A DNA stretch of 64,000 bases from Flavobacterium sp. (lineage in GTDB: Bacteria > Bacteroidota > Bacteroidia > Flavobacteriales > Flavobacteriaceae), in the NCBI RefSeq assembly GCF_024642105.1, contig NZ_JAHEBT010000052.1, positions 372,001 to 436,000 of the forward strand, in the 5' to 3' direction. Positions 327 to 54,014 of the stretch are shown one piece after another. The notes beneath the pieces are model-generated. The model made no database searches. It saw nothing but the letters and a program-made list of their open reading frames with translations, and was not told the origin of the DNA. Both the position numbers and the translations under genes were made by a program. Each line of letters starts with the position of its first letter. Within the stretch, counting starts at the first letter, position 1.

Positions 327-1601
327 TTATAATCCTGTTGCAACAGTTTTTGTTCCTCTTTCTTTGATTAGCTCTTGTCTTACCGCAAAATCACGATACA
401 AAGCCACTGGATTTAATGCAGCACCTGAACGCAAACGTGCCTCAGCTACTAAAGCTCTAACATCGGTACGGAAGGCATTCTGTAAAATTTCTTGTGCTTT
501 TACCACATCATTTTCATTTTGCGCAATTTCTAAAGCTTTTCTATCTACTAATAACGCTTGTGCATAAGCAATCATAATTGCTTCAACAGATTGCAATAAA
601 TCTTCTAATGGATCTTTAACATTATGAGAAGCATCAATCATCCATCCCAAATCTTTGGCATGATTCATTCCTCTAGCATCCATACCTTCTACCAACTCAT
701 TGAAAATCAAAAACAATTGGTAAGGCTTCATTGCTCCTGCAGTCAAATCATCATCTCCGTATTTAGAATCGTTAAAATGGAATCCTCCCAATTTACCTTC
801 CATTAACAATATCGCTACAATTTGTTCAATATTAGCATTTGGCAAATGGTGTCCTAAATCCACTAAAGTAAAGGCTTTATCTCCTAATTTTTTTACATAT
901 GAATACGATTGTCCCCAATCAGCCACAGTAGTAGAATAGAAATTAGGCTCGTTGCTCTTATACTCTAAGTACATCTTCCAATTTGATGGTAAAGCGGCAT
1001 AAATTTCCTCTAAACTTTCCAAGGTATTTTGGTAGGCTTTGCGAAAATTCAACTGCCCAGGAAAACAAGATCCATCGGCCAACCAAACTGTTAAAGACTC
1101 TGAACCCAATGCAATTCCTTGTTGAATTACTTCAATGTTATGTGCAATGGCTTGTTTACGAATAGCTTTATTTACATTCTGTAAAGAACCATATTTATAA
1201 GTGTATTCTTGATTGGTTTGGTCTTGAAATGTATTTGAATTTACCGCATCAAATTTCAGTCCGTGTTGAGAAGCCAAGTTTTTGATAGCTTGATAATCTG
1301 TTGGAATATCCCACGGAATATGTAATGAAATCGCACCTGAAGCATTGTTCAAAGCATGCAACAATCCTACATCTTCTATTTTTTCTTCCAGTGAACGAGG
1401 CTCTCCTCCTCCTGGAAAACGACCAAAACGAGTTCCCCCTGTACCTAATGCCCAAGATGGAATAGCGATTTGAAAATCAATTAATTTTTGGATTATATTT
1501 TCTGTTTCACCAATTTCTGATGCAGTGAAAACTAATTTATTAGCATGCGATTTAAGCAAATCAGCATTATGAGAAGCTATTTTATTTGAATCAAGTAACA
1601 T
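327..1601 (-). CDS. rhaI: L-rhamnose isomerase, Pseudomonas-type (TIM-barrel sugar isomerase)
   Basis: 424 aa; motifs VPSW/IPSWALGTGGTRFGRFPGGGEPR, SLHIPWD, FDAVNSNTF, LVDLGHHLPNANIEQIVA, GGFHFNDSKYGDDDL match the P. stutzeri-type L-RhI family as remembered. Confidence 0.92.
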   Translation of the reverse strand: MLLDSNKIASHNADLLKSHANKLVFTASEIGETENIIQKLIDFQIAIPSWALGTGGTRFGRFPGGGEPRSLEEKIEDVGLLHALNNASGAISLHIPWDIPTDYQAIKNLASQHGLKFDAVNSNTFQDQTNQEYTYKYGSLQNVNKAIRKQAIAHNIEVIQQGIALGSESLTVWLADGSCFPGQLNFRKAYQNTLESLEEIYAALPSNWKMYLEYKSNEPNFYSTTVADWGQSYSYVKKLGDKAFTLVDLGHHLPNANIEQIVAILLMEGKLGGFHFNDSKYGDDDLTAGAMKPYQLFLIFNELVEGMDARGMNHAKDLGWMIDASHNVKDPLEDLLQSVEAIMIAYAQALLVDRKALEIAQNENDVVKAQEILQNAFRTDVRALVAEARLRSGAALNPVALYRDFAVRQELIKERGTKTVATGL

Positions 1602-1658
1602 AATATTTTTTTTAAAGGTAAATAAAAAAGAGAATTAGACAACGATTTTTAAAATTAA

Positions 1659-1692
1659 ATCTCTAACGCCCAAACCAAGAGACGTTAGAGAT
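1659..1692 (-). other. Intra-operon hairpin between aldolase/dehydrogenase and isomerase genes
   Basis: Perfect 10-bp inverted repeat atctctaacg (1659-1668) / cgttagagat (1683-1692) in the 115-bp gap. Confidence 0.7.
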
Positions 1693-1716
1693 AAAAAACA
1701 AAAACCAATCTAAAAA

Positions 1717-3858
1717 CTATCGATAAAATCCCATTGACACCCCACCGTCAACATTCAAGGCATTTCCTGTTGATTTATTCAACAAACCTCCTACGAATGC
1801 ATAACAAGCGTTGGCGATATCATCTGGTAATATAATTTCATTCAACAAAGTACGCTTAGCGTAATAAGCAGGTAATTCTGCTACAGTAATTCCGTAGGCT
1901 TTTGCACGACCTTCTGCCCAACCTCCTGACCAAATATTAGAATCAGAAATTACTGCATCTGGATTAACTGTATTCACACGAATTTTATCTGCACCTAATT
2001 CAGCTGCCATTAATCGTGTTAAGTGAGCCTGAGCCGCTTTGGCCGAACCATATCCAGGATTGTTTGGGCCTGCTACCACTGCATTTTTAGAAACGATATT
2101 CACAATATCTCCTCCAAAACCTTGTTTGCGCATGACCTCAATTCCAGCTTTTGAAACAATAAATTGTCCTTTCACTAAAATATCATACAATCTATCCCAT
2201 TCTTCTAGACTATGTTCCGCAATTGATTTTGAGATACTGATTCCGGCGTTATTCACCACAATATCTACTCCACCAAAGGCTAAACAAGCCGCATCTAGTG
2301 CTTTCTCTGTACTGTTTTCATCGGTCACATTTAAAAGTGCACTTGAAACCGCATCTTTACCAAACATTTTAGTAAAATCTGCCGTAGCTCCTTCTAAACG
2401 TTCTTCATTAATATCATTGATAATTACACAAGCCCCTTCTTCAGCGAAGCGTTTAGCAATTGCTTTTCCAATTCCTCCTGCTGAACCTGTAATTAAAGCT
2501 ACACGTCCTGACAATGCTTTTGGTTTTGGCATACGTTGCAACTTAGCCTCTTCCAATAACCAATATTCAATATCGAAGGCTTCTTGATGAGGCAATGAAG
2601 TATATTCTGAAACTGCTTCAGCTCCTTTCATTACATTCACCGCATTCACATAGTATTCTGAAGCCAAACGGGCCATTGTTTTATCTTTCGCAAAAGTGAA
2701 CATACCAACACCTGGATATAAAATTACCACAGGATTTGGGTCACGCATTGCTGGTGAATTCGATTTTTTACAAGCATTGTAATAGTCTGAATACATAGCT
2801 CTATAGGCTTCAAAAGCAGGTGCTAACTTTGCTTTGATTGCTTCCACATCCGACAAATCTTCATTTGGAGTTAACTCCAATACCAAAGGACTAATTTTAG
2901 TTCTCAAAAAGTGATCTGGGCAAGAAGTTCCAAGCGGCGCTAATCGTTCTAAATCGTTCGAATTAATAAACTCTAATACCCTAGCATCATCTGTATAATG
3001 ACCAATCATTTTGCGCTCTGACGAACAAAATCCACGTAAAATTGGAGCTACTTTAGCGGCTTGTAATTGACGAGAATCTATCGCTAGACTTTCTAGTTTT
3101 TGCCCACCAAAAACAGGACGTTTTTTCCCGTAATTGCTTTCTAAATATTCGGCACATTTCTCAATTACTTCCAAAGTATTGATATAACTTTCATAAGCTG
3201 TATCGCCCCAAGTGAATAATCCGTGAGAACCTAGCATAATTCCTCTTAACTTTTTCCCGCGAGACGCCGCTTCTTCTAAACACGCTCTTAATTGCAATCC
3301 TAAGTCAAACCCTGGTTTTTGCCATCCTACCCAACCGATTTCTCCATTGAATAATTCTTCTGTGATTTTAGCACCGTCTTTAGCGGCTGCAATGGCAATA
3401 GCTGCATCTGGGTGTAAGTGATCAATATGTTTAAAAGGCAAAAATCCATGTAAAGGGGTATCAATAGAAGGTGCTTTTGAAGCCAAATCAAAAATACAGT
3501 GGTTGAATAGCTCTACCATTTCATCTTCAAACTCAATCCCTCTGTACACATTTTCCAAATTGCGCAAACGCTCTAAATAAAGTGCAGCACAACCTGATTT
3601 AGTCAATGTTCCAATATCTCCACCAGAACCTTTAATCCACATTACTTCTGAATCAGCTCCTGTTAATGGGTCTTTATCTGTGATTTTTACTGAAGTATTT
3701 CCTCCTCCGTAATTCGTTAATCTTAAATCAGCTCCTAATAAATTAGAACGGTAAATAAAAAGTGCTACCTCATCTCCTGCTAATGCCTTCGCTTTAGTTT
3801 CATCCCATAAGTAGCTCACGTGTTTAAAAGTCATGTTATCTGTATTTATATTTGACAT
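1717..3858 (-). CDS. rhaD: Bifunctional rhamnulose-1-phosphate aldolase / L-lactaldehyde dehydrogenase (class II aldolase + SDR fusion)
   Basis: 713 aa; N-terminal class II aldolase (NYGGGNTSVK, MLGSHGLFTWGDT) and C-terminal SDR (GRVALITGSAGGIGKAIAKRFAEEGA, NNAGIS, YGSAKAA). Confidence 0.93.
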   Translation of the reverse strand: MSNINTDNMTFKHVSYLWDETKAKALAGDEVALFIYRSNLLGADLRLTNYGGGNTSVKITDKDPLTGADSEVMWIKGSGGDIGTLTKSGCAALYLERLRNLENVYRGIEFEDEMVELFNHCIFDLASKAPSIDTPLHGFLPFKHIDHLHPDAAIAIAAAKDGAKITEELFNGEIGWVGWQKPGFDLGLQLRACLEEAASRGKKLRGIMLGSHGLFTWGDTAYESYINTLEVIEKCAEYLESNYGKKRPVFGGQKLESLAIDSRQLQAAKVAPILRGFCSSERKMIGHYTDDARVLEFINSNDLERLAPLGTSCPDHFLRTKISPLVLELTPNEDLSDVEAIKAKLAPAFEAYRAMYSDYYNACKKSNSPAMRDPNPVVILYPGVGMFTFAKDKTMARLASEYYVNAVNVMKGAEAVSEYTSLPHQEAFDIEYWLLEEAKLQRMPKPKALSGRVALITGSAGGIGKAIAKRFAEEGACVIINDINEERLEGATADFTKMFGKDAVSSALLNVTDENSTEKALDAACLAFGGVDIVVNNAGISISKSIAEHSLEEWDRLYDILVKGQFIVSKAGIEVMRKQGFGGDIVNIVSKNAVVAGPNNPGYGSAKAAQAHLTRLMAAELGADKIRVNTVNPDAVISDSNIWSGGWAEGRAKAYGITVAELPAYYAKRTLLNEIILPDDIANACYAFVGGLLNKSTGNALNVDGGVSMGFYR

Positions 3859-3889
3859 AGTTTATTATTTGTTTTAAAAAAATCTACAA

Positions 3890-4939
3890 TTATAATGAGT
3901 TTCCAATACCCACTATAAAAATGGATGCCAAGATTAGACCGATTCCTAAAAGAAATGTTCGGAACGTTTTTTTGGAAACGCCTGACCATTCTTTTAAATA
4001 AAATCCCCAAAAATTAGCCGTTAAAATGATCGTAGCCATGTGTAAAATCCATGAACTCGCCCCATTACCTAATTTACTTTCTCCCATTCCATAAAAGAAA
4101 AATTGTAAAAACCACATGGTCCCTGCAATAGATGAAAACAGCACATTTTTAGCTATAGGTGTGGCGGTATTGGTGTAATCTACAAATGATTTATTTTTGA
4201 AGTTCAGGTACATACACCAAATGAAGTTAGTGGTTAATCCTCCCCAAAGGATCACGATATAAGTCACGTTATTTTGAAACAACGGGTTAAATCCTTGTCG
4301 CACTGCTTCATCTGCCATTGGCTTTCCAGCTTCGATTCCGAAATTGAAAAATGAACTCAAAATACCCGAAATAATAGCAATAATTAATCCTTTTACTAAA
4401 CTAAAATCTTTGTCTTTATCTTCATGACCTGTAGCAAAATCAGCTTCTTTTAGCATTCCTGCTTTCCCAGAAATTGCTATTCCAATCAGACAAACTAAAA
4501 CTCCAAACAACACCATTTGACCTCCTGTATTAGAAATCATATCCGTAAAAGAAACTTTTCCCTCAACAGGGTAAAAATTATAATAAATAGAAGGGACTAA
4601 TGCTCCAAAAGCAGAACAAAAACCTAATGTTATTGAATTTCCTAAGGACATTCCCAAATAACGCACACCTAATCCATAGGTTAATCCGCCAATACCCCAT
4701 ATCAATCCCATAGTATAGGTTACTGTTTTAATAGAAGGAGCAGTAGCACTAATAATAGCAGAAAAATTAGGAACCGTTAAATAAGCTGCGATGGGTGGTA
4801 CAATGAGCCATGAAAAAAAACCTCCTACAATCCAGTAGCTTTCCCAAGACCATCCTTTTACCTTTTTAAAAGGCATATAAAAACTTCCCGAGGAGAAACC
4901 TCCTATCGAGTGAAATAAAATTCCTAATAATGATTCCAT
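3890..4939 (-). CDS. rhaT: L-rhamnose/proton symporter RhaT
   Basis: 349 aa, about 10 hydrophobic segments; MESLLGILFHSIGGFSSGSFYMPFKKVKGWSWESYWIVGG is typical of RhaT; first gene of the rhamnose operon. Confidence 0.92.
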   Translation of the reverse strand: MESLLGILFHSIGGFSSGSFYMPFKKVKGWSWESYWIVGGFFSWLIVPPIAAYLTVPNFSAIISATAPSIKTVTYTMGLIWGIGGLTYGLGVRYLGMSLGNSITLGFCSAFGALVPSIYYNFYPVEGKVSFTDMISNTGGQMVLFGVLVCLIGIAISGKAGMLKEADFATGHEDKDKDFSLVKGLIIAIISGILSSFFNFGIEAGKPMADEAVRQGFNPLFQNNVTYIVILWGGLTTNFIWCMYLNFKNKSFVDYTNTATPIAKNVLFSSIAGTMWFLQFFFYGMGESKLGNGASSWILHMATIILTANFWGFYLKEWSGVSKKTFRTFLLGIGLILASIFIVGIGNSL

Positions 4940-5003
4940 TCTTTTCTATTTTTTTAATTACTAATTTTCGTTTGGTAAAATAAAAGAATGTAAAAAACAA
5001 AAC

Positions 5004-5256: not shown

Positions 5257-6303
5257 ATGGAAATGATTAAATTTATCAATATAGATGAAAATTCACGAGT
5301 ACCAAAATACAAGCAAATTGTAGACTCTATCATTTATAATATCTCTATTGGAAATCTTCAAATAAATCAAAAGATTCCATCAATAAATATGTTTAGTGAA
5401 GATTTTTATATCTCTAGAGATACCGTAGAAAAAGCATACAATATTTTAAAAGAGCGAAAAGTAATTTCTTCCATTAAAGGAAAAGGGTATTATATTACCC
5501 GTACCAATTTAATTTCTAAAACAAATATTCTTTTTTTAATTAATAAACTAAGCCCATACAAAATGACAACGTATAACTCTTTTGTCAATAGTATTGGAGC
5601 TAATTCAAACACTGATTTATTGATTTATCATTGTGACGAAACTTTATTTTTAAATCTTTTGGATAAAAACAAAGACGATTATGATTACTATGTAATCATG
5701 CCTCACTTTAAAACAGACGATTTAAAACATGTGAGTTATACCGAAGAAGTGGTAAAAGCTATAAAGAAAATCCCTAAAGAAAAGCTTGTTATTATGGATA
5801 ATATTAAGCTCGGAATGGATGGCCAAATCGTTGAAATTTACCAAGATTTTGAAAATGATATTTATAATGCACTAAAAGAAGGTCTATCTAAAATAGCCAA
5901 TTATGAAAAATTAATTCTAATCTATCCAGATAAAGCAGTTTATCCGTACCCAAGAAGAATTTTGCATGGATTTAGAAAATTTTGCGTAGAGTATTCTATT
6001 AATTTTGAAATTTTGAATGAAGTCTATGATGATATGATCCTGAAAAAAGGGGATTTATTTATCACTATTGAAGAATCTGACTTAGTGAGTTTAGTAAAAC
6101 AAATCAGAGATAGTACATTCACTTTAGGAGAAAATATCGGGATTATTTCTTATAACGACACCCCTCTAAAAGAATTACTTGGCATAACCGTTATGTCTAC
6201 CGATTTCAAAGTAATGGGAGAAAGCGCTTCTCAAATGATTATGAACAATGAAAAAGGCACCGTTAAAGTCCCATTTAATTTCATTGATAGGAATTCTATT
6301 TAA
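5257..6303 (+). CDS. GntR-family transcriptional regulator with LacI-like sugar-binding C-terminal domain
   Basis: 348 aa; N-terminal winged HTH (VPKYKQIVDSIIYNISIGNLQINQKIPSINMFSEDFYISRDTVEKAYNILKERKVISSIKGKGYYI); the remainder looks like a periplasmic-binding-protein-like sensor. Divergent from rhaT. Confidence 0.88.
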   Translation: MEMIKFINIDENSRVPKYKQIVDSIIYNISIGNLQINQKIPSINMFSEDFYISRDTVEKAYNILKERKVISSIKGKGYYITRTNLISKTNILFLINKLSPYKMTTYNSFVNSIGANSNTDLLIYHCDETLFLNLLDKNKDDYDYYVIMPHFKTDDLKHVSYTEEVVKAIKKIPKEKLVIMDNIKLGMDGQIVEIYQDFENDIYNALKEGLSKIANYEKLILIYPDKAVYPYPRRILHGFRKFCVEYSINFEILNEVYDDMILKKGDLFITIEESDLVSLVKQIRDSTFTLGENIGIISYNDTPLKELLGITVMSTDFKVMGESASQMIMNNEKGTVKVPFNFIDRNSI

Positions 6304-6366: not shown

Positions 6367-8256
6367 TTATTTCTTTTTTATCAAATTAAATTGATTGAAT
6401 GGAAGCAATATAATATTAGGTTTTGAAACAGATTTCATCCCTTTTCCCATATAAAAACTAGTGTGAGGTGGCTGATTATATCCAACATTTTGCCAAGCAA
6501 TGCTCAATCTGTATTGAGGATCATGCATCAATGTATATTGTTTAATCTCAGTTGGAATAGTGGTTGTATAAATTCTTAATTCTTTATTATCTGAGCTTCT
6601 TAGAATAAGTTCTTCTCTCCAATCACCGAAGATATCAGCAGAAAGTGCTGGAGTTGATTTAGTCCCATTATTAGATGCCGCGCCTTCAGCTGTAAATAAC
6701 CTTCCAGAACCATACTTATCGATGGTGTTAGAATTGAGCAATTCTCTACTCGAATCTCCGTCCCAATAAATTAAAAAATTAGTTGATGCAGGAACTTTCC
6801 CTACTATGTTTCCTTTAATATCAAATAAAAAAGGAGATCCTGACGACCACATTTGCGCCCCCTCTTTAGTGGCATCAATATTATCCGCAACACCTCTACC
6901 AACATCCTTATTTTGTGAACCTAAAAACAAAATTTCTCCATTAATAGCTGAAAACAAAGCCACTCCAGGACCTGTGGTTCCTTCTTCAATTTCATGAACT
7001 CCAAAAACTTCTAGTCCAGGAATAGTTGGGTCAAAATCACTTACGTGCAAGGCGTCCCCATGTCTCAAACCAGTAGTATACAATCCTTTTCCATTGTCAT
7101 CTACACACATAGAACCAAAAATAATTTCATCCCGTCCATCATTATCTACATCGGCAACCGAAAGATTATGATTCCCCATTCCTGAATAAGGGTCATTCCC
7201 ATTCTTAGTATCGAATACCCATCTAGAACTCATTTTTTTATCTTTGAAATCCCAGGCAGCCAAAACAGTTCTTCCATAATATCCTCTACCCATTACTATA
7301 CTTGGATGAATCCCATCTAAATAAGCCACACAAGCTGTAAAACGATCTGATCGGTTCGCAGTTTTGTCGTTTTTTCCATTACCTCCTTGACCTCCCCAAG
7401 CCCCTAAATCTCCTCTAGATGGAATATAGTCAACGGTACTAATCAATTCTCCTGTTTTTCCATTAAAAATGGAAAGATATTCTGGCCCTTCTACTATTTT
7501 ACCATAAGTAGGTGAATCTGTTTTTTTATCCCTCCAATCTTTGGAAACATCCCCCACTGATTTTCCGAGACTATCCGTAGTACCATCTGCTGTTTTACAT
7601 ACAAATTCCGAAATCCCATCACCATCAAAATCATACACTAAAAATTGAGTGTAATGTGCCCCTTCACGAATATTAATTCCTAAATTGATTTCCCATAAAA
7701 AAACGCCTCCTAAAGTATACGCTTGAAAAACAGGAGGGTCTGTCATTCCTGTAAAAGAAGGATCTAGTCCTTTGCCTGTTAAATGAACTATTAACTCGTA
7801 CTGCCCATCTCCATTCAAATCTCCTACAGCAACATCATTAGGAATGTATCCTATTTTCTCTTTTATAGGAATGGATAAATATTGTCTTTCTAAACTATTA
7901 GAAGGAAGTGTAAAACTCCCTAAGGGATCACTTTCAACACCATCAAGAACGGTGGTAACATACCATGTATTTTCATCCCTAACTTTAGCTTTGGTATCTA
8001 TAAAATTAGTTGCCCCTACGATAGGCGCTTTATTAAGTCGAATTGCAGTGTTACCTGCACTCTTGCGGTATAGGTTAAAGGCCAAATTATCAGGGTCGGT
8101 ACCTAAAACTCTCCATCCAATAAAAAAATTACCATTATCATTTACTACAATTACACCTCTGTCTAGTGCTTCCATTTGTCTTTGACCAAAAAGGGTCCAA
8201 CCAGACAAAATGAATAAAACCAACAATAAGTGACTTTTTTTAAAAAAATTTATCAT
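6367..8256 (-). CDS. Secreted rhamnogalacturonan lyase, PL11 family
   Basis: 629 aa with signal peptide; RQMEALDRGVIVV...NFFIGWRVLGTDP, VGDLNGDGQYELIVHL, DFDGDGISEFVCKTADGT, DRFTACVAYLDG, VMGRGYYGRTVLAAWDF are PL11 hallmarks. Confidence 0.93.
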   Translation of the reverse strand: MINFFKKSHLLLVLFILSGWTLFGQRQMEALDRGVIVVNDNGNFFIGWRVLGTDPDNLAFNLYRKSAGNTAIRLNKAPIVGATNFIDTKAKVRDENTWYVTTVLDGVESDPLGSFTLPSNSLERQYLSIPIKEKIGYIPNDVAVGDLNGDGQYELIVHLTGKGLDPSFTGMTDPPVFQAYTLGGVFLWEINLGINIREGAHYTQFLVYDFDGDGISEFVCKTADGTTDSLGKSVGDVSKDWRDKKTDSPTYGKIVEGPEYLSIFNGKTGELISTVDYIPSRGDLGAWGGQGGNGKNDKTANRSDRFTACVAYLDGIHPSIVMGRGYYGRTVLAAWDFKDKKMSSRWVFDTKNGNDPYSGMGNHNLSVADVDNDGRDEIIFGSMCVDDNGKGLYTTGLRHGDALHVSDFDPTIPGLEVFGVHEIEEGTTGPGVALFSAINGEILFLGSQNKDVGRGVADNIDATKEGAQMWSSGSPFLFDIKGNIVGKVPASTNFLIYWDGDSSRELLNSNTIDKYGSGRLFTAEGAASNNGTKSTPALSADIFGDWREELILRSSDNKELRIYTTTIPTEIKQYTLMHDPQYRLSIAWQNVGYNQPPHTSFYMGKGMKSVSKPNIILLPFNQFNLIKKK

Positions 8257-8283: not shown

Positions 8284-10407
8284 TTAAAACATCTTTTTAA
8301 ACCCTTCACTTTGTACTTTCCAAGTACCATCTTTTGGGAATCCAGGATTGACCTCTGTACTTCCATCCCATCCAGCACACATCATAGCAACAGCTGCTAA
8401 CACTCCTCCATTTCCTGGCAAATACAAGCGAAGTCGTTCATCTTGAAAATTATGCCCATTTTTTAAATAGGTATTGGTTCTAACATTCATAAACAAAGCA
8501 TCCACAGCTTTTTCTGGAAGCTGTAAACGTGCCGCACACATAGCAGTCATTGGAAAATCCCATCCCCATGTTTTTTCCCAAGACCAATTGTCCCAAATCA
8601 AATTAAATGTATTTTTCATTATGGATTTATCCAAAAGGCTTGTCTCTGGAAGCATTCCAAAGGTCCCTAACACCGAAGGATGATCTGTCTTAAATTCGGG
8701 ATTTGTATAGGAATCTGTAGCACTTTCTGTGGCAAGATATACTTGATTCTTCACAGGAAGAGGGGCTAATTTTATAGCTACTTCTTTCCATCGTTCTGGA
8801 ACAGATTCATTCAATCTTTTCTTCCAATTAATGGCAGTATTTAATGCCCAATTCCAATACGCCAACTCATACGTTGGGTTAAACGTTTCCATTGCCTTAA
8901 AACGTTCTTGTGCAGGAATAACTCCGGGTCCCAAATTATAAACTTTCTTTTCAGGATCATATTGTGCAAACGAAGCCATAAAATCTGCCGTAGCAAAAAC
9001 ACGTTCTTTGTATTTTTCTAAAGTCAGCTGAGTAGGTAAGGAACGGTACAACAACTCCGCATAGGTAATAAAATGAGGTTGTTGCCAAATAAGAAAAGAA
9101 CCTATTGAAGATGGGCTTTCATTGCCATCAGGGTCAGTCATTTTTTGCCATCTAGCACCCTCGAATCCTTGTCTTTGGGCAATTATTTTAGCTTTATCGA
9201 AAACTTTTTGATACCACGGAAGACTTTTTTCAAGTAACTCCGGACGATTCCAGAGTGCAAAATGTACCCCGTGCCACCAATGCATTTCTAAATGGGGTTT
9301 TCCGTACCAACTGTTATAGGTCAAACCTGTTTCTTGAGGAGGTACTGTTCCAGTACACTGTAGTTTTGTTACATATTGAGAAAGGATGACTCTTCGTTCC
9401 AATTCATGGGCGCGTTTGTCTGTGCTTCCCGAAAAATCAACCGCTGCACCACTCTCCCAAAAATGTTGCCAACCTGATGTACTACTAGTTTGAATCTCCG
9501 AAAATGAAGGAACTGTTTGTTCTTTATTGGTTGTTGGGGCAAACAAACAGCTCAGTTCTATGGTGTTTGTTTTAAAAGGTTCTATTAGAAAATAATGATT
9601 GCCTTTCTTTTTTAATTGAGCATTCCCTTTCCAATTCAAACGAATAGCATAAGAGAGACTATCCATCTCATGCGTCACAAGAGCCGATGTCTTAGTTTTT
9701 TGGACAACCGTACTTATATAATCTTCAACACCTTCCCATTTCGTTCCTGTATCGTCCCAATTTCCTGTTGGATACGGAATTTTTAATCGAATTTTCAACC
9801 TCCCACTTTGAAGTAAATCAGATTGTATTTTAACCCCTATCGCGTCTTTATTTTGATGGGAAGAAGTTTTCACCTTCACTGGTATTCCTTCAAGGATGAA
9901 AGAACTTTCAATTTCACCAGTCCATAAATTTAATACCTGAGAAATCGATTTAATATCCTTAGGTTGAGCCAAGGTGCCATCTTTTTTAACCAACTCAAAT
10001 CCTAAATTACCTAATTGCAATAAATGTGGATTTTGCCTGAACCAATTGACCGCTTCTTTAACTCTTTCGGGGGTTTTCAACTGAGTCGTATACGAGATAT
10101 TTCGACCAAACTGTTTAAATTCTTTTAAGGTTTCTGAAAATTTATACTGATTCTTATTTTTATAACTATCCCAACCCCATTCTGAAGCTGTGCCTAATGG
10201 AACTCCATTCTTATAGGTATCTGGAAAAGTTTGCAATCCTGTAGCATCTACCGTAAATGCAAAAGTACCATTCCCTACCGTTAAAGAAGCTAAAGTATCT
10301 ATCTCGTGGACATGAACATTATGACGACTGACTAACGCTTTTCGGTCTATTTTAGATTGCGCTAATAGGGAAAAAGAGAATAATAAGAGTATAAAATTGT
10401 ACTTCAT
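8284..10407 (-). CDS. Secreted (alpha/alpha)6-barrel (six-hairpin glycosidase-like) protein of uncertain activity
   Basis: 707 aa, signal peptide MKYNFILLLFSFSLLAQS; catalytic-domain-like segments WYGKPHLEMHWWHGVHFALWNR and QGFEGARWQKMTDPDGNESPS. Confidence 0.65.
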   Translation of the reverse strand: MKYNFILLLFSFSLLAQSKIDRKALVSRHNVHVHEIDTLASLTVGNGTFAFTVDATGLQTFPDTYKNGVPLGTASEWGWDSYKNKNQYKFSETLKEFKQFGRNISYTTQLKTPERVKEAVNWFRQNPHLLQLGNLGFELVKKDGTLAQPKDIKSISQVLNLWTGEIESSFILEGIPVKVKTSSHQNKDAIGVKIQSDLLQSGRLKIRLKIPYPTGNWDDTGTKWEGVEDYISTVVQKTKTSALVTHEMDSLSYAIRLNWKGNAQLKKKGNHYFLIEPFKTNTIELSCLFAPTTNKEQTVPSFSEIQTSSTSGWQHFWESGAAVDFSGSTDKRAHELERRVILSQYVTKLQCTGTVPPQETGLTYNSWYGKPHLEMHWWHGVHFALWNRPELLEKSLPWYQKVFDKAKIIAQRQGFEGARWQKMTDPDGNESPSSIGSFLIWQQPHFITYAELLYRSLPTQLTLEKYKERVFATADFMASFAQYDPEKKVYNLGPGVIPAQERFKAMETFNPTYELAYWNWALNTAINWKKRLNESVPERWKEVAIKLAPLPVKNQVYLATESATDSYTNPEFKTDHPSVLGTFGMLPETSLLDKSIMKNTFNLIWDNWSWEKTWGWDFPMTAMCAARLQLPEKAVDALFMNVRTNTYLKNGHNFQDERLRLYLPGNGGVLAAVAMMCAGWDGSTEVNPGFPKDGTWKVQSEGFKKMF

Positions 10408-10418
10408 GATTTTAATTT

Positions 10419-13400
10419 TTATCTAGCTAAGGTAACACTCATTAATCCAATGACTACATCATTAGCAATTGTTCGTAACGTAAGACTTTTCAATTTTTTG
10501 TTTTTATTCAAGGGTAAATCTAAAATGGTAGCAGCTCCACCATCAATTGATTTCCCATTGTATTTTTCTTTTGACTCCTTTCCAGAAACGATTGTTCCTG
10601 TTTTTAAATGAACCCGCATAGGCCGTGGTATTTTCAATGCAAAAGCAAAACCATCTGTATAATAATCTTGTTCTATTGGCCACCAGGTTTCTGGATTTCG
10701 TAACACCAATTTATCGGTTGTGCCATCAGTATATTCAATAATTACAACACCATTATCAAATTGGCTTTGCATAGGATTTGTAGAACCCGCCATTAAAAAC
10801 CACGCGTGAGAAGCATTTCCTGTAAGTGGAATGGTTTTCTCTTTTGGATAATTATCCCATTGCGAAGTGAATAAAATATTGTTGGCACCTTCTATCCCTG
10901 GGGTTGAAAATAAAACACCCTGAGGAAGTGTGATTGTGTTCTTTTCTCCTGCTAATTTGCGGAAACCACCATCATCTACATCAAATGTTCGTAATGAATG
11001 TGGCCAATCGCCTATCCCTTGCCAAGGGAGTTGTAAAGTAGTAACCTGTGGTCGTGGAGACAGGTATTTATTTTTAAAGATTTGGGTAACCTTATCATTA
11101 AAATACCCTGACAAATCAACAGTTTCTAGCTTATCTTTTGTAGTAGCCTGCCAATTGTATAACGATTCAGTTACAATTTCACCATTAGAAAGTGTAATGG
11201 TTACGAGATTTGTTCCTGTCATCAGGTTGTTTTCAGGAACTACTACCTCTGTACTAAATTTACCCGAAGGAATGTCGACTGATGTAGTAAATCCGTTGAC
11301 ACGTACAACTGCTTGTACAGGACTGTTTGTATTATTCTGCAATACAAAACTATTGCTATTTTCCTCCGAATCCTTTCTTGTAATTAAACGAACCGCCTTT
11401 TCAACTTTGAAACAAATGGGCATCCACCACGATAATTTTCCTTGTTGTAATTGTAGAAATACAGTATAATTTCCAGCTGAAGCATTAACTTTAGCTGAAA
11501 ATCCCGATGATTGAGTAACAATATTCTTCAATGCGTTTTGTGGGTCATTTACTTTTAAAACAGTTGCTCCTGAAAAATTTTCGTTTATCAAACTACCATT
11601 TATATATGTTTTTTCAGCAGGCGGCAATACCGGTTTATCTCCTTGCCAAGTAATATGGATTACATATTTATCAGATGCGGTTGTGTTAATTTCGATTACT
11701 GGTTTGCCTACAGCTGAAGCTATATTTATCCAACTAACCGATTTCCCATTTATAGTAATGTTTTTTACCTGACCTTTAGCAATAGCTTGGAATTTTAAAT
11801 TAAGACTTTGAGGTAATTTAGGTTCCAATGTATACACATCTTTTGGACCACTACGTTTAAAATCAAACGAAATATCTGGTGTGGCAAAAGAAGCGTAATT
11901 CCAAGTTGAAGGCAAACCTGGGCGAATAGTAAGTCTGTTACTCAACCCATTTGGTACAATCCCAAAAAGACCTTCTACCAAAGCTCTTGAAAACATTCCT
12001 ATAGGATCGCCAAAATCTCTGTAAGCTTCATTACGTATCGCGTCATAATACGAAATTTGCACAAAATTACCAGGGCTTCCGCCAAGGTACATCGAAGCTA
12101 GCACCTCACTTTTAAATAATTTATACGCTTCGTCAGTACGACCTCCTTGCCAATTGGCAAGTGCTGTATGCATCGATTCTGCCAATACCGAATTGTTTAA
12201 TGACCACTCATAAGGCATCCATTTGGTAGTAGAAAGCGTATAATAACCATCATCATCTAAACCTTTTGCTTTTATGGGAATATGTGGTATTTCATTATCG
12301 ATGTAACGCAAACTCTGATAGGCCTGAAATGGGTTCGTCGTTTCCGAATCTAAACTGTGATAAACCGTCCATAATGCAGGTGCCGAATGCAATAAACGGT
12401 TTCCCAATGCATCTTTATATTCGGCAAAAGTCCCCTTATCTTTCATCCATAATTGAGTATTCATCGCGTTCAAAATCGTATCAGCCTCATTACGGTAAGG
12501 TGTTGGGTCTTCACCAAGAATAGTGGCTATTTGTGCCGCTTTTTTGAATGCATAATAATTATAAGCCGATGAATGTGCCACACCTCCGCCACTATATTGC
12601 AAGGCATCGCTCGCCCAAATAGCTGCATAAGCATCGTACAAACCATCTCTATCCGAATCAAAATTGCGAGTCTCCCATTCTAGATGACGCTTTACTACCG
12701 GCCAAGTTTCCTTTAAAAAAGTCATATCAGCCGTCCATTCGTAATGCCGCAATAATATATCGATATATACTAAATTCATATCGTAATGATGTGCAGTTAG
12801 TTTTTCTCCATTAGGATTTCTACTAATATAACCACTCGTAAACATTCCTACTCCAAGTTTCTCAAGACTTCGAGACAGATGATGTACCGTATCGGCAATA
12901 ACAGATCCGCTCATTGGGCTTGTTAGTTGAGATTTAGCATAGCTTTCTAAATGCATTTTGGCTCGGTCATGCCAACCCAAAGCATCTGCAGTATATGCAC
13001 CTCGCCAACCATTCAATCGCATACGCCAACCTATTGAACCGTGCATATAAGACGGTGCTTCCCAAGTAGCATCTGATGCTATCGCCAAAGTTCCACCAAG
13101 AGTATTAATATAAGGATCTGGAGTAGTGATGGTAATACGATCTGCTATTGATTTTCGAGCTATTTCTGCCTTTGCAAAAACCTGAGGTACCTCACTATAA
13201 TTAAACGCAATTTTAGTAGCTGGATTATGGATAGTAAAGTAATAATCCGTATTGGTTTTAGCATCTATTCTACCTGCTAAAGCGGGCGCACCTTCTGCAT
13301 TCGAATCATAAAATCCTTGTGGTGTGTTTAATTTAGTAGCCTCACTTATTTTTAGTGTAGCCTCTGAAGGAAAAGTTCCTACTAATACTTGTGCTTTAAG

Positions 13401-14087
13401 TTTTTTAGATTCTTGCTTTAAATCTTCTACAAAATAGCGACCGTCTTTTCCGACTTCTAATCCCGTTCCGTATTGCAAAGTAAAGCCTGTGTTTTCAATC
13501 GTATAATTATTATCCTTGCAATTTTCGGGTTTTAGGTAAAAACTTGATTCAGGATCTGGCCCCATGTCTCCATCACGACTGAACTTTTTACCCGAAGCAC
13601 CACCAAAAGCCCAGAATAATACAACGGGTGTTTTTACATCTTGCATTTTTGCTTTTATAATACAACCTTCCGCATCTGCCATTGCCAATACTTCCAGCAA
13701 CAATTTTCCAGTTCCAAGCATCGGGTCTTCTATAGTATAAAGCATCGCACCAGCTCTATATCTTGCCGTAATTGTTTTAGCTGTAGTAAGCCATTTACTA
13801 GTAGTGCCTGTACCAATACCTAATTTAAAATTACCTCCCATTCCTGGCATATACAAAGCAAATTCTGGTAAATCACCGGCCTCAACTCTAAACGCTGTAT
13901 GGGTTCCATAGAGCGCTCTATTGAATTTTCTTGTACCATTTTTCAGAAGAAAACTATCTCCATCAGGCACATAATGCATTGTACGGACATTTCCGTGCCA
14001 AAGGGCTTTTTCTTGACCAATAATTATAATTGGCAATAAAAAAAACAGACAGTTAAAAAAAAGACGAGGTATTTTATTATGTATCAT
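10419..14087 (-). CDS. DUF4450-like large secreted (alpha/alpha)6-barrel protein, predicted glycosidase
   Basis: The track ORF starts at 14129, but internal Met15 (ATG at 14087) gives a signal peptide (MIHNKIPRLFFNCLFFLLPIIIIGQ) and the operator-to-ATG spacing seen at the other sites; GHxxAKMHLESY, YDMNLVYIDILLRHYEWTADMTFLKETWPVVKRHLEWE resemble six-hairpin glycosidases. Confidence 0.72.
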   Translation of the reverse strand: MIHNKIPRLFFNCLFFLLPIIIIGQEKALWHGNVRTMHYVPDGDSFLLKNGTRKFNRALYGTHTAFRVEAGDLPEFALYMPGMGGNFKLGIGTGTTSKWLTTAKTITARYRAGAMLYTIEDPMLGTGKLLLEVLAMADAEGCIIKAKMQDVKTPVVLFWAFGGASGKKFSRDGDMGPDPESSFYLKPENCKDNNYTIENTGFTLQYGTGLEVGKDGRYFVEDLKQESKKLKAQVLVGTFPSEATLKISEATKLNTPQGFYDSNAEGAPALAGRIDAKTNTDYYFTIHNPATKIAFNYSEVPQVFAKAEIARKSIADRITITTPDPYINTLGGTLAIASDATWEAPSYMHGSIGWRMRLNGWRGAYTADALGWHDRAKMHLESYAKSQLTSPMSGSVIADTVHHLSRSLEKLGVGMFTSGYISRNPNGEKLTAHHYDMNLVYIDILLRHYEWTADMTFLKETWPVVKRHLEWETRNFDSDRDGLYDAYAAIWASDALQYSGGGVAHSSAYNYYAFKKAAQIATILGEDPTPYRNEADTILNAMNTQLWMKDKGTFAEYKDALGNRLLHSAPALWTVYHSLDSETTNPFQAYQSLRYIDNEIPHIPIKAKGLDDDGYYTLSTTKWMPYEWSLNNSVLAESMHTALANWQGGRTDEAYKLFKSEVLASMYLGGSPGNFVQISYYDAIRNEAYRDFGDPIGMFSRALVEGLFGIVPNGLSNRLTIRPGLPSTWNYASFATPDISFDFKRSGPKDVYTLEPKLPQSLNLKFQAIAKGQVKNITINGKSVSWINIASAVGKPVIEINTTASDKYVIHITWQGDKPVLPPAEKTYINGSLINENFSGATVLKVNDPQNALKNIVTQSSGFSAKVNASAGNYTVFLQLQQGKLSWWMPICFKVEKAVRLITRKDSEENSNSFVLQNNTNSPVQAVVRVNGFTTSVDIPSGKFSTEVVVPENNLMTGTNLVTITLSNGEIVTESLYNWQATTKDKLETVDLSGYFNDKVTQIFKNKYLSPRPQVTTLQLPWQGIGDWPHSLRTFDVDDGGFRKLAGEKNTITLPQGVLFSTPGIEGANNILFTSQWDNYPKEKTIPLTGNASHAWFLMAGSTNPMQSQFDNGVVIIEYTDGTTDKLVLRNPETWWPIEQDYYTDGFAFALKIPRPMRVHLKTGTIVSGKESKEKYNGKSIDGGAATILDLPLNKNKKLKSLTLRTIANDVVIGLMSVTLAR

Positions 14088-14150
14088 ACTTTGTTTTTCT
14101 TTGATGTGTTTTGAAAAACTGAAAGGCAATTTCTTTATTTTAAAATGATT

Positions 14151-14171
14151 TACTGTCCTGTACCTACCTGA
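14151..14171 (-). promoter_or_regulatory. Operator site 2 (DUF4450/PL11 operon)
   Basis: tactgtcctgtacctacctga; gene orientation TCAGGTAGGT-ACAGGAC. 14-bp core is a perfect inverted copy of site 3. The -7 box at 21 bp (GAAATTGC) is poor. Confidence 0.8.
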
Positions 14172-14198
14172 TATTAGGTAACTTTTTACCTCAACTTG

Positions 14199-14244
14199 TC
14201 AGGATGGTACAGGACAGTAATACAAACTTCAACAACTATTTTTG
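14199..14244 (+). promoter_or_regulatory. Operator site 3 plus -7 box (SGNH esterase/GH2 operon)
   Basis: TCAGGATGGT-ACAGGAC, then exactly 21 bp, then TATTTTTG at 14237-14244. Confidence 0.85.
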
Positions 14245-14275: not shown

Positions 14276-15634
14276 ATGACTTTAAAAAAACTATTTGTTC
14301 TTGTTTTTCTCTTTGGTTCTGCCAATATAGGTTTCTCTATGAATTGGTTTGATTCCCAAAACGATCCAACTAAAAACAACACAATCAACGGTATAAATAA
14401 GACGAAAATTCAGCAGTTTATTTTTGGCAAAAACAAAAACAAGACAGGGATTATAATTGATTCTTCTATTCAATATGACTCCAAGACAGGCTATGGATTT
14501 GACTTCAATACTGCACAAAATGTACAAATTAAGGCTAATAACTTTAGCGCTATAAAGCCAACTTATTTTTCAATTAAACTTCCTGAAGGTAATTATAGCA
14601 TTAAAGTCACCATGGGGAGTAGTGAGCAAGAATCTAATATCACTATTAAAGCGGAATCCAGACGAATACTGCTCGCCGAACTCCGAATTCCAAAAGGAAA
14701 AGAAATATCCAAAACTTTCAATGTGAATGTAAGAAACCCTAAAATCGACACTAATTCCTCTATTACTCTTAAAGAAAGAGAACTAAGTGACCTCAACTGG
14801 GACGATAAACTTTCTTTAGAATTTCTTGGAATCGTGGCTATCCATAAAATTGAAATCATCCCCATATCAAAAATAACGACCCTTTTCTTGGCTGGAGATT
14901 CTACTGTGACTGACCAAGATTTAGAACCTTGGGCGTCTTGGGGACAATGTATAACTCAGTATTTTGACACTGCTATTGTAGTAGCTAACTATGCTGTTTC
15001 TGGAGCCTCTCTGAGTTCTTTCAAATCAAGTGGCCGATTAAAAAAAATAGAAACATTAATTCAACCAGGAGATTATCTCATTATTGAATTTGGTCATAAC
15101 GACGAAAAAATAAAAGGCGAAGAAAATGGTCCATGGCGTTCTTATTCTGACTTGCTCACTGAATTTATTCAAATGGCAAAATCGAAAGGAGCAATTCCTA
15201 TTTTAGTAACTCCAACTCAACGTCGCTTTTTTAATGAAAACGGAACCTTAAAAGCCACTCACGGGGAATTTCCTGATGCCATGCGCGCAGTAGCTACAAG
15301 AAATAATGTATCACTTATTGACATTACTAAAATAACTACTGATCTCTACGAAGCATGGGGAGACCCTCTTTCTAGAAAAGCATTTGTGCAATACCCAGCC
15401 AATACTTTTCCTGGTCAAACGAATATTTTAGAAGACAATACGCACTTTAATAGTTTTGGTGCTAATGAAGTTGCACGATGTGTAATTACAGGAATTCAAA
15501 AATTACCGATTCCGTTAAAACAACACATCTTACCATCTGTTACTACTTACAACCCAAAACAACCTAATATGTTTTCAAATTGGACCCTTCCAATGAGTTC
15601 TCGATTTGAAGCAGTAAAACCAGATGGCAATTAA
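14276..15634 (+). CDS. Rhamnogalacturonan acetylesterase-like protein, SGNH/GDSL (CE12-type) with N-terminal galactose-binding-like domain
   Basis: 452 aa; TLFLAGDSTVTDQD, YAVSGASLSSF, IIEFGHNDEK, DNTHFNSFGANEVA. Confidence 0.88.
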   Translation: MTLKKLFVLVFLFGSANIGFSMNWFDSQNDPTKNNTINGINKTKIQQFIFGKNKNKTGIIIDSSIQYDSKTGYGFDFNTAQNVQIKANNFSAIKPTYFSIKLPEGNYSIKVTMGSSEQESNITIKAESRRILLAELRIPKGKEISKTFNVNVRNPKIDTNSSITLKERELSDLNWDDKLSLEFLGIVAIHKIEIIPISKITTLFLAGDSTVTDQDLEPWASWGQCITQYFDTAIVVANYAVSGASLSSFKSSGRLKKIETLIQPGDYLIIEFGHNDEKIKGEENGPWRSYSDLLTEFIQMAKSKGAIPILVTPTQRRFFNENGTLKATHGEFPDAMRAVATRNNVSLIDITKITTDLYEAWGDPLSRKAFVQYPANTFPGQTNILEDNTHFNSFGANEVARCVITGIQKLPIPLKQHILPSVTTYNPKQPNMFSNWTLPMSSRFEAVKPDGN

Positions 15635-34728: not shown

Positions 34729-36021
34729 TTAATTAATAGTGATTGTAATTTCAGTTGAAAGTTGTTGGGCTAAATTGATAACATATTGATTAAAATAGCT
34801 CGAGTCTTTAAAATTTTTATCTGTGCTCAGTTCCCAAGCCGCAATTGGATAATAACTAATAGTCTCATTATTTTCTACAGCAAACTTAGCTAAATACGAA
34901 TTGGTCAATTGCCCCGTTTTAGGCGCTTCCATATAGCCTTTAAATCCTTTTTTGGGAACAATAATTGCTATTCCCATAATCCATTCTCGATTATAGCCTA
35001 AATTATCATGTTGAATAAGACAAATAAAATTGCCTGCTTCAACTATATTTAAAGGTTTTTGATTATTAATATTAGAAAGTGCAATAAGCAACATTTCGTT
35101 TCCTTTAAGTCCTTCTAAACTCACTGTGTTTTTATACCCGTACATCCCCGGCCAAATCGAAGTTGTTTCTTTAACTTGGTATTGATTCCCTGATACCAAC
35201 CAATTTTGATACGTATAACGCAATACGGAATTTTCTGAACCTTCGGCTACTATTTTAAAAGTAGTTTTTTCAATATTATTCAAAGTATCAGTGGTGATAA
35301 TTCCTAATCTATTGATTTCATCACCTACCAATAATGCATAACCTCCTAAACCTGCTGAATTGCCAACAGGAAAAATATCTCTACCCCAATCCCACATGGT
35401 ATGATAATTATCTTCTACCGCTCCTTCGCTATTAATCCCAACATTCTCTGGGGTAATGGCTGATACTTTTTTACCAAAAACATCTTTAGCGTTTCGGCCA
35501 TCCAAATAATGTCGAAAACCAATCTTGTCGTTTTCCCATGTGGGTCCATCGGTTTGGTATTTTTGGAATCCTAATTTTTTATGCACTTGATTGGCTAATA
35601 GTATTTCTTCTGTGGCAGGTTGAACAGGCAGGTTTTTAGCTTCTCTTTTACCAAACCGAACACTTGTTCTGATTGGAAATTGTGGTGCTTTTTTTACCCA
35701 ACTTAGCTGAATTGTTTTGGTTTCTTTCGCGGCAAAATTTGTCGCCAAAAAAAGCTCATCCCATTTCCCATCCCCGTCTAAATCGTTTACCTGAGAAGGA
35801 ACGACAACTCCATTATACGTGAGCAATGGAAACCCTTTTTGGTTTAAACTAGCGTCTATGCTATTTCTTTTTATACTCACTGCTTTATCTGTCAAAGCTA
35901 TTTCGGCAGCATTGGTCAAAGTGATTGATGTAGCCTTTTTTTGTTGGGCTACTACATTACACGCTAAGAATACTGTTGCAACCATAAATAGAGGCAAACT
36001 CATTTTAAATTTAATTTTCAT
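34729..36021 (-). CDS. DUF4861-like secreted protein of unknown function
   Basis: 430 aa, signal peptide; HYLDGRNAKDVFGKK, YHTMWDWGRDIFPVGNSAGLGGYALL. Confidence 0.75.
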   Translation of the reverse strand: MKIKFKMSLPLFMVATVFLACNVVAQQKKATSITLTNAAEIALTDKAVSIKRNSIDASLNQKGFPLLTYNGVVVPSQVNDLDGDGKWDELFLATNFAAKETKTIQLSWVKKAPQFPIRTSVRFGKREAKNLPVQPATEEILLANQVHKKLGFQKYQTDGPTWENDKIGFRHYLDGRNAKDVFGKKVSAITPENVGINSEGAVEDNYHTMWDWGRDIFPVGNSAGLGGYALLVGDEINRLGIITTDTLNNIEKTTFKIVAEGSENSVLRYTYQNWLVSGNQYQVKETTSIWPGMYGYKNTVSLEGLKGNEMLLIALSNINNQKPLNIVEAGNFICLIQHDNLGYNREWIMGIAIIVPKKGFKGYMEAPKTGQLTNSYLAKFAVENNETISYYPIAAWELSTDKNFKDSSYFNQYVINLAQQLSTEITITIN

Positions 36022-52205: not shown

Positions 52206-54014
52206 ATGAAAAACAAAACCAATAATCTAAAAATGACTAAATGGACGCTGCTTTTGCTGCTTTTTGGAACAGCATTATCATTTGCTCAAAATAAAGAAAT
52301 CCCTTTATGGGAAAAAATCCCAAGCGCTATCCAAAATTCAGAATATAAAGAAGAAACCCTTTATGATTCAGAACAAATTATAAAAGGAGTGAACAAAGTG
52401 GTCCAACCAACACTAACCCTCTTTTTAGCCGATTCTAAGAAATCAAACGGAGCAGCTGTAATTATCTGTCCAGGGGGAGGTTATGCTCATTTAGCTATTA
52501 ATAAAGAAGGTTTTAAAGTAGCTAAATGGCTCAATAGTCTAGGGATTTCAGCATTTGTTTTAAAATACAGATTGCCAAACGATGCTATTATGAAAGATAA
52601 AACCATCGGTCCTCTACAAGATGCTCAAGAAGCCATAAGAACAATCAGACGCAATGCAAAAGAATGGCACCTAGACCCAACAAAAATAGGAATTATGGGA
52701 TTTTCAGCAGGTGGACATTTAGCCACTACATTATCAACTCATTACCAAGATAACGTATATGAGTCCGACGCAACTATAAGTGCACGGCCTGATTTTTCTA
52801 TCTTGATATACCCCGTAATTTCAATGGAAGATGGTATAACCCATAGTGGGTCTAAAGTGAACCTTTTAGGCACCAATCCAAGTCAAAATTTAATTGAGAA
52901 ATATTCCAATGAAAAGCAAATCACTTCAGATACTCCAAAAGCATTTCTAGTTCATGCCTCTGATGACAAAGCCGTTCCGGTTGTAAATTCAATTAATTAT
53001 TACCTTAATTTGAGAAAAAATAACGTACCTGCCGAAATGCATCTATATGAAAATGGCGGACATGGATTTGGTTTAGGTACTGGAGGTACTCATAAAGATT
53101 GGCCAAAAACCTGCGAGAAGTGGTTAGTAGAAAATGGTTATGTTACACCATCCGAAGGCTATCTTTTTTCTTATTTCAAAGGCAACGGACAAGATGGACT
53201 ACATTTGGCATACAGCCAAGACGGATACAAATGGAAAGCATTAAAAAATGACTCCTCTTTCTTAGCTCCCGAAGTGGGAAAAGACAAATTAATGAGAGAC
53301 CCTAATATCATTTTAGGGGCCGATGGTTGGTATCACATGGTTTGGACGGTAAGTTGGACAGACAAAGGAATTGGTTATGCCTCATCAAAAGATTTAATTC
53401 ATTGGTCAAAACAAGAATTCATCCCCGTAATGAGCCGCTTCAAAACAGCACGCAACACTTGGGCCCCTGAAATAACATATGATTACAAACATAAAAAATA
53501 CATTATCTATTGGGCTTCCACAATTGATAATAAATTCTCTGAGACCAAACCAACTGTTGAAAATGGTTATAATCATAGAATCTATTATACCACAACCCGA
53601 GATTTTAAAAAATTCAAACGAACAAAACTTTTATTTGATCCTGGTTTTAATGTAATTGATGCAACAATTGTTCATCAAGAGGATGGCTATGCTATGTTTA
53701 TGAAAGACGAGACTCCTAACCCAGCTCAAAAAAACATTAAAATTGCTCATAGCCAAAAAATAACTGGACCTTATCACAATGTTAGTCTACCTATTACAGG
53801 AAAATATTGGGCTGAAGGACCAAGTGTAGCTAATATAAATGGGAAACAAATAGTATATTTTGACAAATACAAAGACAAAAAATACGGTGCCGTAATCAAA
53901 ATGGCTAATGAGTGGAAAGACATCTCAGACGAAATCAGCTTTCCGGAAGGAACAAGACATGGAACAATAATTCAAGTCCCAACAGAATTGATTAATTTAT
54001 TAAAAAAAGAATAA
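52206..54014 (+). CDS. Alpha/beta-hydrolase esterase fused to a GH43-like beta-propeller
   Basis: 602 aa; N-terminal ICPGGGYAHLAINKEG, IGIMGFSAGGHLATTLS, HASDDKAVPVVNS, HGFGLG; C-terminal LMRDPNIILGADGWYHMVWT, TWAPEITYDYKHKKYIIYWAS, AEGPSVANINGKQIVYFD. Confidence 0.9.
   Translation: MKNKTNNLKMTKWTLLLLLFGTALSFAQNKEIPLWEKIPSAIQNSEYKEETLYDSEQIIKGVNKVVQPTLTLFLADSKKSNGAAVIICPGGGYAHLAINKEGFKVAKWLNSLGISAFVLKYRLPNDAIMKDKTIGPLQDAQEAIRTIRRNAKEWHLDPTKIGIMGFSAGGHLATTLSTHYQDNVYESDATISARPDFSILIYPVISMEDGITHSGSKVNLLGTNPSQNLIEKYSNEKQITSDTPKAFLVHASDDKAVPVVNSINYYLNLRKNNVPAEMHLYENGGHGFGLGTGGTHKDWPKTCEKWLVENGYVTPSEGYLFSYFKGNGQDGLHLAYSQDGYKWKALKNDSSFLAPEVGKDKLMRDPNIILGADGWYHMVWTVSWTDKGIGYASSKDLIHWSKQEFIPVMSRFKTARNTWAPEITYDYKHKKYIIYWASTIDNKFSETKPTVENGYNHRIYYTTTRDFKKFKRTKLLFDPGFNVIDATIVHQEDGYAMFMKDETPNPAQKNIKIAHSQKITGPYHNVSLPITGKYWAEGPSVANINGKQIVYFDKYKDKKYGAVIKMANEWKDISDEISFPEGTRHGTIIQVPTELINLLKKE

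Follow-up and report, generated by a model that had tools for sequence, protein, structure and literature searches.

Two co-inherited secreted (alpha/alpha)6-barrel proteins of a Flavobacterium rhamnogalacturonan-I locus are candidate exo-glycosidases

In this study, we describe two adjacent genes from a rhamnogalacturonan-I (RG-I) locus of Flavobacterium sp. whose products, a 707-residue protein (hereafter P707) and a larger protein with a DUF4450 domain, are very likely to be exo-glycosidases acting on RG-I. The genes lie in a stretch of 64,000 nucleotides (the window) which corresponds to positions 372001-436000 of contig NZ_JAHEBT010000052.1, part of a 3.0-Mb draft genome. The more specific reading that we favor, and that we hold to be somewhat better supported than its competitors taken together, is that both proteins are periplasmic, inverting, exo-acting glycosidases which trim RG-I oligosaccharides. 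It is built on the observed genes, their conservation, co-occurrence and fusions, and on the predicted folds.

An earlier sequence-only reading of this DNA had linked the two genes to RG-I, and this link is backed by synteny, co-occurrence and fusions. In a sample of 295 Bacteroidia genomes, P707 was present in 10 and strong matches to the DUF4450 protein in nine, all within the P707 set (p about 2e-16), while the rhamnogalacturonan lyase PL11 was present in nine, eight of them with P707 (p 3e-13); these p values assume independent genomes and hence overstate the association. A glycoside hydrolase (GH) of family GH106 of the RG-I length class, assigned by frame length and position, occurred in nine of the 10 genomes with P707. 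P707 has at least 589 relatives in GTDB species genomes, the nearest being nearly all from Flavobacterium at about 70-79% identity. Neighborhoods were counted by BLAST for the best 80 of these relatives with one query per family, so that the counts are lower bounds: 45 had a DUF4450 gene within 10 kb of P707, and in 38 it was the immediate neighbor on the same strand; GH28 (33), PL11 (27), rhamnose isomerase (12), aldolase (12) and also GH105 were found nearby, compared with one occurrence of a housekeeping control gene. Moreover, GH28, GH105 and P707 are fused in one natural protein of 1608 amino acids, and two other proteins join an SGNH esterase to P707. Of 61 genomes from one genus, probably Bacteroides, 28 contain P707, often in the minimal arrangement SusC-SusD-P707-DUF4450 and sometimes with GH28 added (loci L051, L272, L274, L277, L278 and L281). 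The genus is judged from one of its standalone DUF4450 proteins, which is 57% identical to PDB chain 4e0e of B. thetaiotaomicron. In four other loci (L233, L234, L235 and L236), PL11 is found inside frames of 1215-1553 amino acids with large extensions of no assigned family.

The sequence-only reading had also described both products as six-hairpin proteins belonging to no characterized GH family, and neither point needs revision. The AlphaFold model of P707 (mean predicted local distance difference test score, pLDDT, 86.9) consists of a beta-sandwich and an (alpha/alpha)6 barrel, and no Pfam or NCBIfam model names the protein (no Pfam match even at E <= 1). It has the GH65 domain architecture of beta-sandwich, helical linker and (alpha/alpha)6 barrel; by the curated model P707 is outside GH65, yet by profile and predicted fold it is placed in the GH65 neighborhood. 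When the PDB was searched with a ten-member P707 profile, chains of family GH65 came up, with E 2.5e-6 for kojibiose phosphorylase and 7.6e-6 for human PGGHG, and profile-profile comparison gave E values of 1.4e-10 for GH65 hydrolases, 5e-5 for GH95 and 0.06 for GH65 phosphorylases. Thirteen of 56 P707 relatives matched the kojibiose hydrolase model NF053734 (best 3e-11) and nine the Pfam GH65 model, both at E <= 0.01, with individual Pfam GH65 scores of 18.6-22 bits seen among relatives against a cut-off of 27; the Pfam GH95 catalytic model was matched neither by the window P707 nor by the 56 relatives. The top Foldseek match was FjGH65A (7fe3; E 4e-25, template modeling (TM) scores 0.69/0.73), followed by GH65 phosphorylases, PGGHG, GH95 and GH139 (9hyq; E 2e-16, TM 0.57/0.55), all at 11-15% identity to P707 and along the entire protein. 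The comparison by profile and structure which had been suggested earlier thus leaves P707 distantly related to GH65 hydrolases, GH95 and GH139, and the DUF4450 protein nearest to GH94 and GH116, with lower scores for GH78.

The GH65 hydrolases (FjGH65A, the kojibiose hydrolases of NF053734 and human PGGHG) share with P707 the domain order, the fold, the position of the acid and significant profile similarity, but identity is only about 15-19% and the residues around the active center differ. Ten acidic residues are invariant across a 56-member P707 alignment. E501, the predicted general acid, aligns with Glu472, the general acid of FjGH65A (PMC8626586). In this clan, acid and base sit on the helix 5-6 and helix 11-12 loops (PMC8626586). 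The FjGH65A base Glu616 aligns at or near N653 of P707, in a loop that holds no invariant acid and in which residue 656 is Asp or Glu in 83% of sequences only. The Ser-Ser and His positions of the GH65 phosphate site are occupied by W614-G615 and Y662, and the pair 'WD' of the -1 subsite becomes 'LE'. The phosphorylase loop HESSLSP, which carries the phosphate-binding Ser-Ser, aligns with KTWGWDFP of P707, where the invariant D617 starts an inner helix. Whether D617 is the general base is close to an even call, made on an alignment of about 19% identity. In GH95, Asp766 activates Asn421 and Asn423. The asparagine pair is the base in that family, with Asp766 beside it (PMC10154630), and although GH95 and GH139 have their fold in common with P707 and the ungapped 'EM..W' motif at helix 2 is present in both GH95 (TEMNYW) and P707 (LEMHWW), the counterparts of the three GH95 residues in P707 are K370, H372 and P664. 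At the +1 subsite, the FjGH65A pair Trp391-Glu392 (PMC8626586) aligns with K422-M423. Because invariant Arg and Lys (R419 and K422) replace the GH65 Trp/Glu there, the alignment suggests that an acidic sugar would occupy the +1 subsite of P707.

With regard to the larger protein, the DUF4450 domain and the extra C-terminal beta domains noticed earlier are both present. PF14614 matches the N-terminal sandwich only (E 3.7e-71; 239 bits against a cut-off of 27; model positions 1-212 of 212), and the AlphaFold model (mean pLDDT 86.9) shows the sandwich, an (alpha/alpha)6 barrel and several beta domains. The last 230 residues or so are 54% conserved, compared with 61% for the barrel and 21% for the stretch that precedes them, and they are retained in shorter relatives of about 1000 amino acids; at 54% conservation this terminal domain is probably functional. 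The solved PF14614 domain, 4e0e, has 178 residues and no barrel, whereas the window domain would be the sandwich of a complete glycosidase. A barrel-less standalone DUF4450 protein (261-amino acid frame) adjoins GH28 in locus L040, and one DUF4450 homolog from a genome of the same genus (L017) has one in-frame TGA.

Foldseek placed GH94 phosphorylases first for the DUF4450 protein (E 3.8e-22, TM to target 0.60-0.63), then GH116, GH65 and GH78; individual matches were 8hob (E 4e-22), 4zlf (TM 0.63) and 8ic6 (E 9e-19). It has the fold in common with GH94 and GH116 at 11-13% identity, but differs in its extra conserved C-terminal beta domain. Profile-profile comparison, in which few sequences made up the profiles, gave no convincing match to either family: hhalign to a GH94 profile of three sequences only gave E 0.005 over 53 columns, and a one-sequence comparison with GH116 gave E 0.04. 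Consistent with the lack of a family assignment, GH116/MGH1-like scores were marginal: the GH116/DUF608 model scored 31.6 bits (cut-off 26.3) but covered profile positions 95-211 of 361 only; weak DUF608/GH116 matches were seen in 38 of 41 relatives, and Pfam GH94 was matched neither by the window protein nor by its relatives. Weak Bac_rhamnosid6H matches appeared in 22 of the 41, and a group of paralogs can be aligned along the barrel (E 1.4e-18). Identification as a GH78 rhamnosidase was set aside tentatively, as GH78 structures score well below those of GH94. D494 aligns with Asp492 of the GH94 chitobiose phosphorylase 1v7v, which we take to be the GH94 general acid, so that its position is that of GH94, and three further invariant carboxylates, E687, D691 and D694, are candidates for the base; acid and base candidates sit in loops preceding helices 6 and 12. 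The carboxylates before helix 12 point to a hydrolase. The lack of a catalytic acidic pair, which had been named earlier as a finding that would refute the candidacy of the two proteins for new specificities, does not apply to the DUF4450 protein, in which candidates for the pair are present; in P707 the acid is kept and the GH65 or GH95 base is gone, with an alternative invariant Asp available.

From these observations we infer hydrolysis, inversion, periplasmic location, the roles of residues and the linkage, as follows. RG-I oligosaccharides would be imported by SusCD and then trimmed by the co-inherited secreted pair. In P707, E501 would protonate the leaving group. The lost canonical base would be replaced by D617, which lies on the loop that positions the phosphate nucleophile in GH65 phosphorylases. 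An acidic +1 sugar in the context of RG-I would mean that P707 cuts rhamnose (Rha)-alpha-1,4-galacturonic acid (GalA) after GH105 has removed the unsaturated cap, an assignment that we put forward tentatively, as our leading guess. If P707 removes rhamnose, the GH28-GH105-P707 fusion would give a full exo-cycle, and GalA would suit the basic +1 subsite. The DUF4450 protein would be a hydrolase with D494 as its acid and one of E687, D691 or D694 as its base, acting on a neighboring linkage or substituent; any single linkage that one might name for it is quite unlikely to be the right one.

Several points weigh against this reading. Firstly, as judged from the alignments, P707 has neither the GH65 hydrolase base (Glu616 of FjGH65A) nor the GH95 Asn pair and Asp. 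Secondly, the +1 subsite is mapped through a 19%-identity profile alignment. Thirdly, GH106 of the RG-I type, GH28 and GH105 co-occur with the pair and cover the known backbone linkages, so that neither protein fills a known gap. The prediction of new specificities on RG-I oligosaccharides made by the sequence-only reading stands for the RG-I link, while the specificity itself is inferred only. Fourthly, two copies of P707 occur in genome G107 (L056 and L057), which lacks both PL11 and DUF4450. One of the two copies adjoins SusCD, a beta-lactamase-fold protein and a GntP permease. That P707 simply substitutes for GH106 was rejected, since a GH106 of the RG-I length class is present in nearly all P707 genomes; it may instead serve a chain length, acetylation state or substituent other than those served by GH106.

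It is conceivable, though improbable, that P707 and the DUF4450 protein do not act on the backbone and instead remove a side-chain or cap sugar of RG-I, such as alpha-L-fucose, L-galactose, glucuronic acid or a rare substituent. P707 resembles GH95 and GH139, which are active on L-fucose and L-galactose residues, and backbone links are already served by GH106, GH28 and GH105; however, the fusion partners of P707 are the backbone enzymes GH28 and GH105 and an SGNH esterase. P707-DUF4450 has beside it in two genomes a set of aldo-keto reductase, amidohydrolase, major facilitator superfamily (MFS) and Zn-dehydrogenase genes resembling that of oxidative fucose use (L051:3871-8110 and L274:14398-18639), but the set is seen in these two only and is convergent with the pair, and Pfam and NCBIfam scans of the window showed rhamnose catabolism and no fucose catabolism. 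It is a little less probable still that P707 is an exo-alpha-1,2-galacturonidase, a counterpart of GH28 cutting GalA-alpha-1,2-Rha, in which Arg419 and Lys422 hold a carboxylate at -1. The nearest solved fold is a GH65 alpha-1,2-glucosidase, GalA-Rha is the sole alpha-1,2 link in the RG-I backbone, and the invariant Arg and Lys are near the active center; yet the positions that align with them form the +1 subsite in FjGH65A, and the same locus frequently has GH28. The absence of a standard base in P707 would also be expected if one or both proteins were non-catalytic, binding accessories, which we regard as very unlikely given the near-total conservation of active-center residues in 90 (P707) and 53 (DUF4450) sequences, the fusion of P707 to catalytic modules and acid positions that show no decay. 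A phosphorylase, which the missing hydrolase base and the kinship with GH65 phosphorylases might suggest, was rejected as the least credible identity for P707, because the GH65 phosphate-site residues are absent and its profile is nearer to the hydrolases, and the protein also has a signal peptide.

The exo-glycosidase reading gains from the setting of the genes (Table 1). The lengths and coordinates reported earlier agree with the open reading frames (ORFs); the larger ORF could start from a TTG (10419-14129, 1236 amino acids), but the ATG at 14087 opens the signal peptide. On the minus strand the order is DUF4450, P707, PL11, separated by 11 and 27 bp, in keeping with the single operon described before. 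The upstream site thought to be shared was likewise recovered: the operator-like motif CTWTCCTGTACTWTCCTG has seven copies in the window with <=3 mismatches allowed, against 0.13 expected, at 5003, 14153, 14200, 23062, 27856, 30537 and 46942, preceding operons of the locus and with two copies upstream of DUF4450. Because an RG-I locus surrounds them and CTWTCCTGTACTWTCCTG copies stand before its operons, both proteins are very probably members of an RG-I regulon, and the GntR-type regulator encoded at 5257, with a motif copy at 5003, is probably the reader of the motif. The window contains the SusCD pair, PL11, GH105, GH106 and GH28 that define an RG-I utilization locus; in full, its kit comprises two SusCD pairs, three GH2, GH28, two GH105 (PF07470) and a GH106 of the BT4145 type (1033 bits, under the 1300 cut-off of that model), and rhamnose isomerase, aldolase-dehydrogenase and RhaT genes lie at 327-4939. 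PL22-like proteins, DUF4861, GH43 and SGNH or sialate-type esterases are also encoded. The DUF4861 protein (34729-36021) is within the GH28/GH105 operon, and a 602-amino acid protein (52206-54014) combines a BD-FAE-type esterase with a GH43-like domain.

Table 1. Positions in the window of the two proteins, their predicted functional parts and associated elements
Feature	Position	Strand	Basis or remark
P707	8284-10407	minus	ORF, 707 aa, ATG; secreted, (alpha/alpha)6, GH65/GH95/GH139-like
P707 N-terminal beta-sandwich, residues 31-291	9535-10317	minus	Model secondary structure
P707 (alpha/alpha)6 barrel, residues 331-678	8374-9417	minus	Model; GH65-hydrolase profile alignment E 1.4e-10
P707 E501, predicted general acid	8905-8907	minus	Invariant 90/90; aligned with GH65 acid Glu before helix 6
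P707 D617 (TWGWD), predicted relocated general base	8557-8559	minus	Invariant 90/90
P707 R419 and K422 (RWQKM), predicted basic +1 subsite	9142-9153	minus	Invariant, 56-member alignment
DUF4450 protein	10419-14087	minus	ORF, 1222 aa from ATG; secreted, (alpha/alpha)6, GH94/GH116-like
DUF4450 N-terminal beta-sandwich, residues 40-287	13227-13970	minus	PF14614 and model
DUF4450 (alpha/alpha)6 barrel, residues 330-707	11967-13100	minus	Model; 61% mean identity
DUF4450 terminal beta domain, residues 990-1222	10422-11120	minus	Model; 54% mean identity
DUF4450 D494 (WASDAL; D508 from TTG), predicted general acid	12606-12608	minus	Invariant 53/53
DUF4450 E687, D691, D694 (EAYRDFGDP), base candidates	12006-12029	minus	Invariant 53/53; just before helix 12 in model
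PL11 rhamnogalacturonan lyase	6367-8256	minus	RGL11_C E 4.1e-194; third operon gene
GntR-type regulator	5257-6303	plus	PF00392 E 1e-9
Two inverted CTWTCCTGTACTWTCCTG copies	14153-14217		Between DUF4450 and divergent SGNH gene at 14276

The RG-I pathway of B. thetaiotaomicron is finished by GH105, GH106 and GH28 (PMC8002723). The kit of its locus BT4145-BT4183 recurs in the window, as two SusCD pairs, PL11, two GH105, GH106, GH28 and GH2, but the review of that locus assigns no enzyme of the P707 or DUF4450 type (PMC8002723). The literature searched contained no mention of DUF4450, and for BT4147 and neighboring locus tags it returned only unrelated papers or passing mentions. A bolder proposal, which we consider unlikely on present evidence, is that P707 represents a new GH family intermediate between GH65, GH95 and GH139, in which the general base has shifted from the helix 11-12 loop onto an Asp in the helix 9-10 loop, and that it is a second kind of RG-I backbone rhamnosidase; the DUF4450 protein would then represent another family, with an unforeseen RG-I linkage. 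Family status was judged here by Pfam, NCBIfam and structures, and newly opened CAZy families may already include either protein.

RG-I breakdown has been described as complete with known families, and yet two conserved secreted proteins with the features of glycosidases accompany this kit and form minimal loci of their own. They are spread through the Bacteroidota, including Flavobacterium, Chryseobacterium, Pedobacter, Sphingobacterium, Chitinophaga, Hymenobacter and others. This would imply either that the known RG-I pathway misses steps or substituents, or that parallel enzymes exist for the same bonds. Moreover, P707 may allow a direct test of the idea that the general base is able to change its place among inverting enzymes of the GH65-like kind.

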